A DNA stretch of 6,503 bases from contig JBHIBR010000105.1 of the NCBI GenBank assembly GCA_046759145.1, forward strand, positions 1-6,503, in the 5' to 3' direction. The notes under the pieces are model-generated. The model was not told the DNA's origin. It did not search any database and saw nothing but the letters and a program-made list of their open reading frames with translations. The DNA comes from JBHIBR01 sp046759145 [NCBI: Nitrospinota bacterium] (GTDB taxonomy: Bacteria; UBA8248). Within the stretch, counting starts at the first letter, position 1; every line of letters starts with the position of its first letter. The position numbers and the translations under genes were made by a program. Positions 1,031 to 6,503 of this stretch are shown one piece after another.

Positions 1031-2554
1031 ATGAACGACACCGAGCTCGCTCTTGTCAATTGTCAGGTTGTGACCCCTGGCTCCACCTATCCGGCTGTTC
1101 TGTATCTCCGAGACGGAAAGATCGCCAAGATCGCGGATAGGCTCGAGGAGCGGCCGGCCCGGGCCCTGGATGTGGGCGGTCGGTACGTGATGCCGGGCCT
1201 CATCGACTGCCACGTGCACATGATGGACCCGGGTTATCCCGAGTGCGAGGACTTCATCGCGGGGACCAGTGCCGCGGCCAAGTCCGGAGTCACCACCATC
1301 CTCGACGTCCCCCGCCACCTTCCCCCCGTGGACAGTGCCAAAAGGGTCGAGGAGCAGAAGGGGTACCTGGCCGATCGGGCGGTGGTCAACTACGGCGTCT
1401 TCGCCGCGGTGTACCCCTACAACCTCGATTCGGTCGAGGAGATGTGGCGGGCCGGCGCCGTTGGCCTCAAGGTGTTCACGGTGGAGATCCACGAGACCCC
1501 CCCGCTCATGCCGGGGGACCTGATGAAGCTCTTTGGTCTTGCCTCTGAGTTCGGCGGAGCCATCCTCCTCCACGCCGAGGACGACTCCATCGTGAAAGCC
1601 AACGAGGCGCGGCTGAGGGCGTCGGGGCGCCGGGACCCCATGCTCCATGCGGAGATGCATTCCCCTGAGGCTCAGGTCCTCGCCGTGGAGGCGGTCTGTT
1701 CGGTGGCGGAGCTCTCCCTGGGGGGCAGCGCGCGGCTGGTCTTTGCGCATCTCAGCGACCCCCTCTGCCTCCACCGGGTGGCGCGGGCAAGAGAGAAAGG
1801 GACCCCCGTCTTCGCCGAAACCATGCCCCACTACCTCTACTTAACCTACGAGGACCTGCGGGAGAGGGGGCCCTGGGTGAAGTTTGCCCCCACGGTCCGC
1901 TCCCCCGGGACGGTGGCCGAGATGTGGAGGTGCCTGGGCCGCGGGCTGGTGCACCTGGTGAGCACCGATCATGCGCCTCAACCCGCCCGACTCATCCGGC
2001 CGGGGGAGGAGGACATCTGGAAGAGCCCCCTGGTGACGGGCTCCAACATCGAGGTGGGCTCGCGCCTCATGCTTCACGCCGTCAACGAGGGCAAGATCTC
2101 GCTCAACCAACTCGCCCAGCTCATGTCCGCCGGGCCCGCCCGGATCTATGGCCTCTACCCCCGCAAGGGGGCGATCCAGGTGGGCGCCGACGCCGACCTG
2201 GTGGTCGTGGACCTGGAGCGGGAAGAGACGGTCCGGCCCGGGGGCCTCGTCTCCAAGGGTGGATGGACCATGTACGACGGCCGCACCCTGAAGGGCGCCC
2301 CCGTGATGACCTTGGTCCGGGGCAGGGTGGTCTACGAGGAGGGGAGAGTGACCGGCGAAGCCGGCTGGGGGCGATACGTTGCTCCCGGGAGGGGGGTTAA
2401 GCCGTTTGGGAGGCCGCTTCCCGGGGGAGATGAATGCGTGTCCGTTCAGGGTGTCTCTGGCTTCGGCCGGCCCCCCTTCCGCAGGGCCAGTTCCTTTTCT
2501 CGGAGGAGGTGCTCGAAGAGGGAGAAGGAGACCGGGCTCGCCCAGTTGCGGTAG
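1031..2554 (+). CDS. Cyclic amidohydrolase (dihydroorotase/allantoinase/hydantoinase superfamily), probably with a run-on 3' end
   Basis: This is a metal-dependent hydrolase of cyclic amide rings with a TIM-barrel fold. A small beta domain comes first (residues 1-55), followed by PGLIDCHVH. The expected binuclear metal ligands are all present: H61 and H63 (HVH), K147 (GLKVF, the carboxylated lysine), H181 (LLHAED), H240 (FAHLSD) and D313 (STDHAP). ETMPHYLYLTYEDL (263-276) is typical of allantoinase and hydantoinase relatives. True dihydroorotases have HxHxR and MPNT motifs; here these read HVHMMDPG and VPRHLPP, so orotate synthesis is unlikely and the real substrate is unknown. The frame as read has 507 residues. 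The family-like sequence ends near residue 455 (GWGRYVAPGRG), and the last 50 or so residues are low-complexity Arg/Ser/Gly sequence that runs antisense into the next gene. One extra G in the G6 run at 2391-2396 would stop the protein at TAA 2398-2400 with 456 residues, a normal length. The true end is therefore probably about 2400. Confidence 0.85.
   Translation: MNDTELALVNCQVVTPGSTYPAVLYLRDGKIAKIADRLEERPARALDVGGRYVMPGLIDCHVHMMDPGYPECEDFIAGTSAAAKSGVTTILDVPRHLPPVDSAKRVEEQKGYLADRAVVNYGVFAAVYPYNLDSVEEMWRAGAVGLKVFTVEIHETPPLMPGDLMKLFGLASEFGGAILLHAEDDSIVKANEARLRASGRRDPMLHAEMHSPEAQVLAVEAVCSVAELSLGGSARLVFAHLSDPLCLHRVARAREKGTPVFAETMPHYLYLTYEDLRERGPWVKFAPTVRSPGTVAEMWRCLGRGLVHLVSTDHAPQPARLIRPGEEDIWKSPLVTGSNIEVGSRLMLHAVNEGKISLNQLAQLMSAGPARIYGLYPRKGAIQVGADADLVVVDLEREETVRPGGLVSKGGWTMYDGRTLKGAPVMTLVRGRVVYEEGRVTGEAGWGRYVAPGRGVKPFGRPLPGGDECVSVQGVSGFGRPPFRRASSFSRRRCSKREKETGLAQLR
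2408..2422. terminator. Weak hairpin between the convergent genes
   Basis: GGGAGG-CCG-CTTCCC can form a 6-bp stem (one G.T pair) with a 3-base loop. It sits between the suspected true end of the amidohydrolase (2400) and the stop of the leftward redox gene (2446), where a shared terminator would be expected. Neither strand has a U-tract after the stem, so intrinsic termination would be weak at best. Confidence 0.2.
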
Positions 2555-3033
2555 CCTATCGAGCCTCCCACCACCCGGCCCTTGCGGTCGATGATGAAGT
2601 TGGTGGGGACGAGGCGCTGCCCGAATGGGCCGGCGGCCCGCCTCTGGGGATCCAGGAGGTGGGGGAAAGTCAGCTTATGCTTCCGGACGTAAGGCGGGAC
2701 CAGCTTCGGTTCCTGGTCGACCGAGACCGCCAGCACCACCAGTCCCTCCCCCCGGTACTTCCGCCAGAGCGCTTCGAGAGCCGGCCGCTCCCGTAGGCAG
2801 TACGGTCACCAGGTGGCCCAGAAATTGAGCAGTACCACCTTCCCCCGGAACTCGGAGAGGCGCACCGTCCTCCCCGCCAGGTCGGGCAGCGTGAAGTCGG
2901 GGGCGGGGATGTCCGGCACCCGGGCCATCATGAGCGCCTTGAGGTGAGCCTCGAGCGCCTCTCCCGCCCCCGCCAACGGGGGAGGGAAAGCCCAGAGCGC
3001 CAGGGCCAGGAGCAGGGGCGAGAATCTCTTCAT
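2446..3033 (-). CDS. Exported TlpA/ResA-like thioredoxin-fold selenoprotein (UxxC active site)
   Basis: This is a predicted thiol-disulfide oxidoreductase of 195 residues, with selenocysteine at position 76 encoded by TGA 2808-2806. An N-terminal signal peptide is clear (MKRF, then LLLALALWAF, with a likely AGA cleavage site at 21-23), and there is no lipobox cysteine. The mature protein has APDFTLPDLAGRTVRLSEFRGK, then VVLLNFWATW (66-75), U76-P-Y-C79, an ALEALWRKY helix, VVLAVSVD, the cis-proline loop VPTNFIID (P143) and GYRNWASP near the end. This order is typical of the AhpC/TSA-TlpA-ResA group, whose usual motif is WATWCxxC. C79 is the only cysteine, so the TGA supplies the missing partner. 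No frameshift is needed, since both halves share one frame. The ATG at 3033 has a strong GAGGAGG four bases upstream; an in-frame ATG at 3126 would put 31 residues before the signal peptide and is disfavoured. The final stop is TGA 2448-2446. The gene lies 110 bp after argG. The alternative is a nonsense mutation (TGC to TGA), which the intact downstream frame and the hairpin argue against. Confidence 0.85.
2775..2793 (-). promoter_or_regulatory. Candidate bacterial SECIS hairpin
   Basis: On the mRNA strand, counting the U of UGA as 1, bases 16-22 (CGGGAGC) pair with 28-34 (GCUCUCG) in a 7-bp stem containing one G.U pair. The loop is GGCCG, and two more pairs are possible below an A.A mismatch. 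Bacterial SECIS elements lie inside the coding region just after the UGA and have a short apical loop with a G in its first two positions. In E. coli fdhF the loop sits at a similar distance. The stem also encodes normal protein sequence (LRERPALE). A competing 5-bp hairpin directly after the UGA (2791-2805, CCGUA/UACGG) shares three bases with it. SelB binding cannot be judged by eye. Confidence 0.65.
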
Positions 3034-3037
3034 GGTT

Positions 3038-3044
3038 CCTCCTC
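3038..3044 (-). promoter_or_regulatory. Ribosome binding site of the selenoprotein gene
   Basis: GAGGAGG on the minus strand lies four bases before the ATG at 3033-3031. It fixes the start at the signal peptide MKRF and shows that this gene has its own strong initiation site rather than relying on coupling to argG. Confidence 0.8.
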
Positions 3045-3143: not shown

Positions 3144-4358
3144 TCAGGGTTTCGGCGGAAGACCCTGGAGGGCGCGGATCCGGAGGCGGAGCGCGTTCAG
3201 GCGGATGAACCCCTCGGCGTCCTTCTGGCGATACACCTCGTCCTCGCCGAAGGTGGCGAAGTCCGCGCGGTAAAGCGAGCGCGGGGAGCTTCGCCCCACC
3301 ACGGTGACGCTTCCCTTGTAGAGTTTGAGCCGCGCCGTCCCGCTCACGGCCCGGGCGGCCTCATCCACCGCCCCCTGGAGGAATTCCCGCTCGGGGGAGA
3401 ACCAGAATCCATTGTAGACCATGGCCGCGTAGCGGGGCAGAAGGGAGTCCCTGAGGTGCATCACCTCCCGGTCCAGAGTGATGGACTCCACAGCCCGGCG
3501 GGCGACGTGGAGGAGCGTGCCCCCCGGGGCCTCGTACACCCCCCGGCACTTCATCCCCACGAAGCGGTTCTCCACCATGTCCACCCGGCCCGCCCCGTGC
3601 TCGCCCCCGACGGCGTTGAGGCGGGCGAGGAGGCTCGCCGGGGAGAGCCGCTCATCGTCCACGCCGACGGGGTCTCCCTCCTCGAAGTGCACCTCGATGT
3701 AGCGGGGCTCGTCGGGGGCCTCCTCGGGCGCCCGGGTCAGGACGAAGAGGTCGGAGGGAGGCTCCCGCCAGGGGTCCTCTAGGGTGCCCCCCTCGAAGCT
3801 CATGTGCAGCAGGTTCCGGTCGGTGCTGTAAGGGCGCTCGCGGGTTGCGGGGACGGGGATGCCGTGGCGGTCGGCATAGGCGATGAGATGCTCCCTTCCG
3901 CCAAAGTCCCACTCCCGCCAGGGGGCGAGCACCTTGAGGTCGGGGGCCAGAGCGGCGTAGGTGAGCTCGAAGCGGACCTGGTCGTTCCCCTTGCCCGTCG
4001 CCCCGTGGGCGAGGGCATCCGCCCCCGCCCGGCGGGCCACCTCCACCTGCCCCTTTGCGATGAGGGGCCGGGCGATGGCAGTGCCCAGGAGGTAGCCCCC
4101 CTCGTAGGTAGCCCCCGCCCGCAGTAGGGGGATGATGAAGTCCCGGGCGAATTCCTCCTTGAGGTCGAGGACGAAGGTCTCCTCCGCCCCCGTCCGACGG
4201 GCCTTCTCTTCCAGGCCGGCCAGCTCCTCCTGGCCCTGTCCCACGTCTGCGGCGTAGGCCACCACGGGGCAGCGGTAGCGCTCCCCGATCCAGCGGAGCA
4301 TCACTGAGGTGTCCAGCCCCCCCGAGTAGGCCAGCACCACCTTGCGGAACTCACCCAC
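3144..4358 (-). CDS. argG: Argininosuccinate synthase
   Basis: This cytoplasmic enzyme joins citrulline and aspartate with ATP to give argininosuccinate, AMP and pyrophosphate, the penultimate step of arginine synthesis. It has 404 residues, the usual length. The N-terminal ATP-pyrophosphatase motif [10 protein letters not shown] is at 10-19 and [10 protein letters not shown] at 35-44. [14 protein letters not shown] (85-98) and [13 protein letters not shown] (119-131) are the citrulline/aspartate and ATP contact regions typical of the family, and YSTDRNLLH is at 177-185. The start is GTG at 4358-4356. A GGGAGG Shine-Dalgarno sequence eight bases upstream supports it, as does the usual family N-terminus (KVVLAYSGG within ten residues of the start). 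It overlaps the end of argF by 8 bases and stops with TGA. Nothing looks damaged. Confidence 0.97.
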
Positions 4359-5283
4359 TGCGGGAGCCTCCCATCAGGAATTCGAGCAGCGCCTTGTGCG
4401 TGTGGAGCCGGTTGCCCGCCTGGGGGATGACCGCGCTGCGCGGGCCATCCAGCACCTCCGCGCTCACCTCCTCTCCCCGGTGAGCGGGAAGGCAATGCAT
4501 GAAGATAGCATCCGGGCGTGCCTCCCGGAAGAGGGCCTCCTCCACCCGGTAGCCCCCGAAGGCACTCCGGCGCCGGTTGGCCTCTCCCTCCTGGCCCATG
4601 CTCACCCAGACGTCGGTGTAGAGCACGTCCGCCCCGCGTGCGGCCTGGCGCGGGTCGCGCACCACCTGGAGGCTATCGGGCTCGACCGCCAGCGAGCGGG
4701 CCCGGGCGAGGACCTCGGCCCGGGGCTCAAACCCCTCGGGCGAGGCCACCGTGACGGCGAAACCAAGGCGCGCCCCCGCCAGGAGAAGGGAGTGGGCGAC
4801 GTTGTTCCCATCGCCGATGTAGGCCAGGCGCACGCCCTCGAGCCTCCCCAGGTGCTTCCGGATGGTGAGGGCGTCGGAGAGCACCTGGCAGGGGTGGAGG
4901 AGGTCGGTGAGGCCGTTGATTACGGGCACGGAGGCAGCCCGGGCCAGCTCCTCGAGACCCTCGTGGGCGAAGGTGCGGACGAGGAGGGCGTCGGCGTACT
5001 CGGAGAGGATGCGCGCGGTGTCGGCGATGGTCTCCCCCCGGCCGAGCTGGAGCTCCCCCCGGCCGAGGAAGAGGGCGTGGCCCCCGAGCTGGAACATCCC
5101 CGCCTCGAAGGAGACCCGGGTGCGGGTGGAGGGTTTCTCGAAGATCATGGCGAGGGTCTTGCCCGCGAGCGTCTGTGGGGAGCGGCCCTCGCGGTGGAGG
5201 CGCTTGAGTTCCTCCGCCCGGTCGAGGAGGCGCAGGAGCTCCTCGCGGCTGAGGTCGGTGATGGAGAGGAAATCTCGCTTCAA
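4351..5283 (-). CDS. argF: Ornithine carbamoyltransferase
   Basis: This cytoplasmic enzyme transfers the carbamoyl group from carbamoyl phosphate to ornithine, giving citrulline. It has 310 residues, standard length for the anabolic form. The carbamoyl-phosphate motif STRT is at 52-55 ([13 protein letters not shown]) and HPCQ at 130-133. GDGNNVAHS (157-165) and DVWVSMG (224-230, the ornithine loop) follow, and HCLP is at 263-266. The start is TTG at 5283-5281, which overlaps the argD stop as TTGA. No good Shine-Dalgarno sequence precedes it, so translation is probably coupled to argD. The next in-frame ATG (residue 46) would remove the N-terminal helix, so TTG is preferred. It stops with TGA, overlapping argG. 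Confidence 0.96.
4367..4372 (-). promoter_or_regulatory. Ribosome binding site of argG inside the end of argF
   Basis: GGGAGG on the minus strand lies eight bases before the GTG at 4358 and within the last codons of argF. It supports GTG as the argG start and a polycistronic argF-argG message. Confidence 0.65.
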
Positions 5284-6503
5284 GCGGGCAGGTTCCGGAC
5301 CGGAAGGTCCCCGACCGGAAGGTCCCCGAGGACCTCATCCAGTGCGGCGAGGAGGGCGTCCACCTCCTCCCGCCCCACGGCCAGCGGGGGGAGGAATCGC
5401 AGGACGGTGTCCATGGTGCAGTTGATGAGGAAGCCCCGCTCCATGAGGGTGCTCACCACGGCGCCGCCCGGCCGGTCGAGCTCGCAGCCGAGGAGGAGAC
5501 CGAGCCCCCGGACCTCCCGGATGGGGGGATGTTTCGCCTGGAGCTCCCGCAGCCGCCCTATGAAGTACCGGCCCATCTCCGCCGCGCCCTCGAGGAGGCC
5601 GGCCTCCAGGGTGGCCCGGAGGGCGGCCACACCCGCCGCCGTCGCCAGGGGGTTGCCGCCGAAGGTGGCGGCGTGGTCGCCCGGGGCGAAGGCCATGGCC
5701 TTCTCGCTCATGCACAGGGCGCCGATGGCCGTCCCCCCGGCGAGGCCTTTGGCCAGGGCCATGGCGTCGGGGGCAACCCCGAAGTGCTCGTAGGCGAAGA
5801 GCTTCCCCGTCCTCCCCATCCCCGACTGGACCTCGTCGAAGAGGAGGAGGAGGTCGCGCCCATCGCACAGGGCCCGCAGGCCCGGGAGGTAGTCGGGGGA
5901 GGGGACGTTCACCCCTCCCTCTCCCTGGAGGGGCTCCACCAGGATGGCGCAGGTCCGCTCGTTCACCGCCGCCCCGGCGGCCTTCAGGTCACCGAAGGGG
6001 ACGTAGCGGAAGCCGGGGAGGAGGGGGGCGAACCCCTTGTGGAATTTCGTCTGCGCCGTCGCCGCGAGAGAGCCCATGGTGCGGCCGTGGAAGCCGTTTT
6101 CCATGGTGAGGATCTCGTGGCGGCCCTCGCCGTAGCGGGCGTAGGAGTACTTGCGGGCGAGTTTGATGGCCGCCTCGTTTGCCTCGGTGCCGCTGTTGCA
6201 GAAGAAGACTTTCTGCGCGAAGGTGTGCCGGCACAGGAGCTCCGCGAGCTCCACCTGGGGCTCGATGTGGTAGAGGTTGGAGACGTGGAGGAGCCTGCCC
6301 GCCTGCTCCCGCAGGGCGGCCACCACCGCGGGGTGGCAGTGGCCCAGGTTGTTGACCGCCAGGCCGCAGACGAAGTCCCAATAGGCCTTCCCGTCCGCGT
6401 CCCACACCCGCCCTCCCTCGCCCCGGACGAGGGCGATGGGGAAGCGGTTGTAGGTCTTGGCGACGCAGCGCTCCGCCCGCTCGATGAGCTCGCGGTTCCC
6501 CAT
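5280..6503 (-). CDS. argD: Acetylornithine aminotransferase (PLP-dependent)
   Basis: This class III aminotransferase interconverts N-acetylglutamate semialdehyde and N-acetylornithine, using glutamate and pyridoxal phosphate. It has 407 residues, normal for ArgD. The N-terminus TYNRFPIALVRGEG with VWDADGKAYWDF is typical. NSGTEANEAA (103-112) binds the PLP phosphate, and GFHGRTMGSL is at 137-146. EPLQGEGGV is at 190-198, and DEVQSGMGRTG (223-233) contains the aspartate that contacts the pyridine ring. ALAKGLAGG carries the Schiff-base lysine K252. The ATG at 6503-6501 is the last codon in the window, so its Shine-Dalgarno sequence and promoter are out of view. The N-terminus looks complete by family comparison, but a start further upstream cannot be excluded. 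The C-terminal tail ([15 protein letters not shown]) is a small repeat unusual for the family. The TGA stop overlaps the argF TTG start. Confidence 0.95.
   Translation of the reverse strand: MGNRELIERAERCVAKTYNRFPIALVRGEGGRVWDADGKAYWDFVCGLAVNNLGHCHPAVVAALREQAGRLLHVSNLYHIEPQVELAELLCRHTFAQKVFFCNSGTEANEAAIKLARKYSYARYGEGRHEILTMENGFHGRTMGSLAATAQTKFHKGFAPLLPGFRYVPFGDLKAAGAAVNERTCAILVEPLQGEGGVNVPSPDYLPGLRALCDGRDLLLLFDEVQSGMGRTGKLFAYEHFGVAPDAMALAKGLAGGTAIGALCMSEKAMAFAPGDHAATFGGNPLATAAGVAALRATLEAGLLEGAAEMGRYFIGRLRELQAKHPPIREVRGLGLLLGCELDRPGGAVVSTLMERGFLINCTMDTVLRFLPPLAVGREEVDALLAALDEVLGDLPVGDLPVRNLPA
5298..5327 (-). repeat. Perfect 15-bp tandem duplication in the 3' end of argD
   Basis: Two identical 15-bp units (on the + strand GACCGGAAGGTCCCC) lie head to tail, and a degenerate third unit follows towards the argF start. 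They encode GDLPV twice and then RNLPA, the last residues of ArgD. Each unit contains an inverted repeat, GACC-TTCC-GGTC in the mRNA, that could form a 4-bp hairpin just before the argF TTG. The reading frame is kept because the unit is a multiple of three. Confidence 0.85.

Follow-up and report, generated by a model that had tools for sequence, protein, structure and literature searches.

A TlpA-like gene behind argDFG with a conserved in-frame UGA at the first active-site cysteine position: a probable UxxC selenoprotein

Selenoproteins with a UxxC motif have been catalogued in several groups of bacterial oxidoreductases. As described in a 2026 review (PMC13188914) and in an earlier survey (PMC1088965), they include the 'Thiol-disulfide isomerase-like protein' (cd02966) and the 'Prx-like thiol:disulfide oxidoreductase' (PF00578). 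Thiol-disulfide isomerase-like proteins with UxxC were already known from the Sargasso Sea in 2005 (PMC1088965), and a Methylomirabilota MAG has been predicted to hold 63 selenoprotein genes (PMC13188914). The TlpA-like gene analysed here resembles the catalogued UxxC TlpA/AhpC-TSA selenoproteins, as these are described, in encoding a thioredoxin-fold oxidoreductase with selenocysteine (Sec) predicted where CxxC members have their first Cys, and it shares with the Prx-like selenoproteins the family PF00578, which is also its best Pfam match. It differs in its linkage to argDFG, which the catalogue entries in those sources (PMC13188914, PMC1088965) leave unmentioned, the comparison being one of descriptions rather than of sequences. 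A search of the open-licence literature found no report linking a UxxC TlpA to argG. UxxC TlpA-like selenoproteins are thus already known, and what is new is an argG-linked subfamily for which no NCBIfam model reaches its cut-off.

The gene lies in a window of 6,503 nucleotides (the whole stretch of DNA analysed) as the last gene of a minus-strand cluster in the order argD-argF-argG-tlpA, for which shared transcription is the simplest reading. The features of the cluster, with their basis in brackets, are as follows.

5280..6503, minus strand: argD, a class-III aminotransferase gene ending in TGA (name from gene order and Aminotran_3)
4351..5283, minus strand: argF, ending in TGA (ORF list, family match)
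3144..4358, minus strand: argG, immediately upstream of tlpA, ending in TGA (ORF list, family matches)
3038..3044, minus strand: Shine-Dalgarno-like GAGGAGG just upstream of ATG 3033 (by eye)
2446..3033, minus strand: tlpA-like coding sequence with UGA read as Sec, 195 aa, WATW-U76-PY-C79 (frame, PF00578, 3kcm alignment, orthologues)
2962..3033, minus strand: probable Sec-type signal peptide or N-terminal anchor, about residues 1-24 (translation by eye; low pLDDT at residues 1-20)
2806..2808, minus strand: predicted Sec codon UGA at residue 76, where the CxxC-equivalent motif begins (same-codon TGA in five argG-linked orthologues)
2797..2799, minus strand: Cys79, predicted resolving Cys of UxxC (invariant alignment column)
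2772..2796, minus strand: candidate bacterial SECIS, CGGGAGC/GCUCUCG of 7 bp plus two outer pairs, loop GGCCG (folding, published model)
2605..2607, minus strand: Pro143, the residue expected to be the cis-Pro in a thioredoxin fold (invariant alignment column)

The preliminary description of this DNA had pointed to the reading frame, and we re-derived it from the sequence. The minus-strand ORF starts at ATG 3033-3031 and meets a TGA at 2808-2806, codon 76, directly after WATW; PYCLRERPALEALW follows, and the frame runs on for 119 codons to the final TGA at 2448-2446, so that reading through the first TGA gives a product of 195 residues. The DNA beyond the in-frame TGA has the codon pattern of coding DNA: G+C by codon position is 0.68/0.49/0.91 before the TGA and 0.71/0.46/0.86 after it, compared with 0.74/0.47/0.91 in argG and a different pattern, 0.58/0.70/0.78, beyond the final tlpA stop. 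Elsewhere in the window, a plus-strand amidohydrolase ORF (1010-2554) converges on the 3' end of tlpA and overlaps it by about 109 bases (2446-2554); its family match stops near residue 451 of 514, the tail beyond being without a match. A second plus-strand ORF (215-802, 195 residues) appears hydrophobic by eye and has no Pfam match at 0.001. The window contains no tRNA-Sec, and an Rfam search of it returned four matches, all below threshold and at chance level.

Sequence and structure comparisons place the tlpA product in the AhpC-TSA/Redoxin domain group with a thioredoxin fold. With C written at residue 76, its best Pfam match is AhpC-TSA (PF00578, 100.6 bits against a cut-off of 26), Redoxin also matches, and comparison with PDB sequences aligns the protein to the WATWCPPC motif of 3kcm, in agreement with the earlier proposal that the residue after WATW is the first Cys of CxxC in this family. 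An AlphaFold model, built with C in place of U and an alignment of 14, has a mean pLDDT of 88.7 and a pTM of 0.80, with a helix beginning at residue 77; Foldseek returned 3kcm as its best match (TM 0.92 by target length) and also ResA, 1st9. The protein has the UxxC motif and the conserved Pro before strand 4, residues 76, 79 and 143 are invariant in the alignments (TGA at 76 counted as C), and the N-terminus is signal-like in the translation by eye. The Cys-type TlpA/ResA proteins (3kcm, 1st9, 1jfu) share the fold and the position equivalent to WATWCxxC, but carry Cys where the window has UGA. Among NCBIfam models, 16 match the product and none of the 16 reaches its cut-off. The ResA model NF002854 scores 101.2 bits against a curated cut-off of 170, and NF041054 (WAxxUGC_long) scores 67 bits against 300; going by its name, the latter has its Sec motif at the same place in a ResA-like domain, but it differs in its length of 354 and its UGC motif, the window protein having UPYC.

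The evidence that carries most weight comes from orthologues. ArgG was searched in 28 genomes reached through Cys-form loci, 23 of which matched, and this led to a locus (L081) in the MAG ODZ_NOB7a (G009) where a TlpA gene carrying the same-codon TGA comes after argD-argF-argG. Within the G009 phylum, the gene was found in five of the 18 genomes examined (G009, G133, G136, G137 and G138), each time with TGA at codon 76 and each time directly behind argG; the 198-363 nt between the ends of the argG and TlpA matches include the tlpA N-terminus and contain short open runs, as expected in such DNA. The order argD-argF-argG is visible in four of the five, the contig of the fifth starting within argF. 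The gene of G138 is truncated by a contig end beyond the TGA, and the other four cover the rest of the protein intact. The orthologous proteins are 56-76% identical to that of G009, and the window is 64-67% identical to this cluster in argD (four genomes), 53-58% in argF (full-length matches) and 68-71% in argG. Five other genomes with both the same-codon TGA and the argG linkage are beyond chance, and they confirm tlpA as a genuine gene rather than a broken one, since related genomes have the same codon. We also considered a placement of the window in Methylomirabilota, where most full ArgG matches have 64-72% identity, but rejected it: none of 31 Methylomirabilota argG loci (the 30 best and L082) has a TlpA match behind argG, two of them (L131, L136) having less than 700 nt downstream. 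The argG-linked phylum of G009 therefore fits the window better.

UxxC relatives occur in other phyla as well. All 95 Methylomirabilota genomes (the phylum of G003) have some TlpA-like match, and TGA stands at the codon in 12 of 26 loci read, from 11 genomes (L083, L089, L094, L199-L201, L203-L208), a proportion that is not a census, as the 26 are the 12 best and 14 picked for a listed TGA. Among 295 Nitrospirota genomes searched, 210 have a match at 1e-30 or better, and five of 20 loci read carry the TGA (L213, L214, L217, L219, L226). Both groups resemble the window in the same-codon TGA and in a hairpin 16-20 nt behind it, and both differ from it in having no argG match in their loci with the window proteins as queries. 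Individual Methylomirabilota genomes contain up to 26 TlpA-like matches, one of them (G103) has two distinct UxxC TlpA paralogues (L204 and L205), and two loci (L206, L207) encode a UxxC variant in which FFTTT-U-PLC replaces FWATW, with a strong hairpin of its own.

As the preliminary description had anticipated, homologues with Cys and with TGA at residue 76 both exist. A scan of genome contigs with the tlpA protein gave 80 loci, with a best identity of 46%, in which the aligned codons are all TGC (58 matches) or TGT (29); the set leans to Cys forms, the active-site Cys having been part of one of the six search patterns. The remaining 13 genomes in the phylum of G009 have Cys paralogues, and the one nearest to the window, L110 in G004, is also its nearest relative by identity (55-56% over the tree columns). 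L110/L198 of G004 lies on a 4.4 kb contig without a match to argD, argF or argG, outside the arg cluster, and its hairpin at the SECIS place is weak (-2.5). In the phylum of G010 (24 genomes, 18 matched), 20 loci were read and all are Cys, with TGA at the codon in none. Viral contigs gave 17 relatives, and all 12 that align across the codon have Cys.

The machinery for Sec insertion is present in the relatives. In the phylum of G009, 16 of 18 genomes have a tRNA-Sec that scores over cut-off and 14 of 18 a SelB that does, in both cases including all five that have the UxxC gene. The top tRNA-Sec matches exceed 72 bits, compared with 48-54 bits for false matches resembling tRNA-Leu or tRNA-Ser, and ARAGORN identified tRNA-SeC (tca) in all three loci given to it (G009, G133, G137). 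G137 has two tRNA-Sec matches of 74.1 bits each (C100:3109-3201 and C104:29651-29743), which represent a duplicate gene or an assembly copy. SelA is over cut-off in eight of 12 genomes tested, including four of the five with the UxxC gene, that of G009 being below it at 48.9 bits. SelD exceeds its cut-off in 10 of 12, among them the five UxxC genomes, each with a single TGA in frame; reading five of the SelD loci placed this TGA at the usual N-terminal position, within an (A)GG/GAG-U-xxK motif. In the Cys-form genome G004, SelD is over cut-off and SelA, SelB and tRNA-Sec are not, in an assembly of only 2.3 Mb, so that they may simply be missing from the sequence. By analogy with these relatives, we infer that the window's own organism would have the Sec machinery.

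A candidate SECIS lies just behind the in-frame UGA. The bacterial SECIS model, as given in PMC13188914, has a loop of 3-9 nt, an upper stem of 4-16 bp, a G within the loop's first two positions, a spacing of 16-37 nt and an MFE of at most -7.5. The window hairpin, whose 5-nt loop starts with G and begins 19 nt behind the UGA (-12.2 kcal/mol), satisfies this model, although the model is permissive, with 43 of the 137 TGA triplets of the window passing it. Stricter limits (loop at 16-20 nt, -10 or better) are passed by five of 137 in this G+C-rich window. We rejected the hairpin as stand-alone proof, as by itself it is within chance: its z against shuffles is -0.72, and 13% of synonymous recodings match it. 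The comparison across homologues is stronger support than the window hairpin alone. With limits chosen after seeing the data (loop 16-20 nt behind the codon, -6 kcal/mol or better), a hairpin is found at 23 of 23 TGA sites versus five of 71 Cys homologues, a contrast whose Fisher p of 2e-17 is too strong, the rows being related. Where the minus-strand genes of the window end in TGA (four stops), the hairpin scores -5.3 or weaker. The stem shows covariation among the 12 Methylomirabilota sequences, three of seven pairs changing on both sides (eight cells), a level that none of 500 shuffles reached, while slid versions gave at most one pair; the hairpin axis there is 3 nt closer to the UGA than in the argG-linked set (index sum 36 versus 42). 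The argG-linked stem (six sequences) is conserved, with two one-sided and no two-sided changes, and its A/G end pair is unpaired in two of the six.

Purifying selection acts behind the in-frame TGA, where dN/dS is low: dN 0.17 and dS 1.43 between L105 and L106, and dN 0.44 and dS 1.57 between the window and L108, values near saturation. A tree of 88 proteins groups the window with L110, a Cys protein, and with the U proteins linked to argG (support 100/89; 99/88 in another tree). This group falls within a weakly supported clade (83/73) of 17 rows, which comprises L110 and 16 U proteins and spans three phyla, and six further U proteins fall outside it. Sec-containing TlpA may have arisen once, with later loss, or more than once. 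We regard as evenly balanced the more specific proposal that an unnamed UxxC TlpA subfamily behind argDFG predates the split between at least the window lineage and the phylum of G009, that it belongs to a three-phylum Sec-TlpA clade in which Sec was replaced by Cys at least once (in L110, outside the arg cluster), and that the SECIS shifted by one codon between phyla.

The model that follows, almost certainly correct in its outline, builds on what was observed: the reading frame, the fold family, the in-frame TGA and its conservation, the order of the genes, the hairpin, and the machinery in relatives. SelB and tRNA-Sec would decode UGA76 as Sec under the direction of the stem-loop that directly follows the codon, the role of SelB being taken from the relatives, and the terminal UGA of tlpA, which has no comparable hairpin, would stop translation. 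The product would be an exported thiol-disulfide oxidoreductase of the TlpA/ResA fold whose active site reads WATWUPYC. Lying at the N-end of the first helix, Sec76 would attack as the nucleophile and Cys79 would resolve, as in CxxC members. By analogy, the reductase of this Sec-TlpA may be a CcdA/DsbD-type protein. Sec insertion in the window's organism, export and the redox role are what we infer here, and the identification as a UxxC TlpA-family selenoprotein, already proposed in the preliminary description, is strongly supported: the conditions named there as refuting it turned out in its favour, through the same-codon TGA in the five argG-linked orthologues, the Sec machinery of those genomes and the TGA stops of the neighbouring genes.

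It is very improbable that the TGA arose as an error in sequencing or assembly, or that a nonsense mutation has recently turned the gene into a pseudogene. Within one contig an isolated TGA would look identical, but other genomes have orthologues with TGA at this codon and in the same gene order, which makes an error or an isolated mutation unlikely; four of the five are intact beyond it, further homologues share it (12 of the 26 Methylomirabilota loci read, which are not a census, and five of the 20 in Nitrospirota), and dN/dS behind it is low. Even less probable is that TGA has been reassigned across the genome, for example to Trp or Gly. The tlpA frame would be equally open with Trp in place of Sec, but argD, argF, argG and tlpA itself all end in TGA, so that the codon is not globally reassigned, as had been argued before. 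The in-frame TGA also falls on the catalytic Cys column, Cys being found in 80 of 80 genome-contig loci (from six search patterns, one of which contained Cys), and relatives carry tRNA-SeC(tca).

A third reading retains Sec insertion but supposes mixed decoding, in which translation mostly terminates to leave a 75-residue fragment and the full-length Sec protein is made only with selenium, as a selenium-dependent switch. Decoding of UGA as Sec is generally in competition with termination, but a fragment of 75 residues would be without most of the fold, and we consider such a switch about as improbable as an error or pseudogene. The preferred reading remains a full-length selenoprotein with Sec at residue 76.

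Routine annotation would end this gene at codon 75 or label it as broken, and as none of the 16 matching NCBIfam models reaches its cut-off, the argG-linked subfamily is likely to go unnoticed in relatives too. The window-type gene and the Cys form L110 form a naturally occurring Sec/Cys pair with which to ask why selenium is used in a periplasmic oxidoreductase. The shift of the hairpin between phyla offers material on how an in-frame SECIS moves inside a coding sequence.
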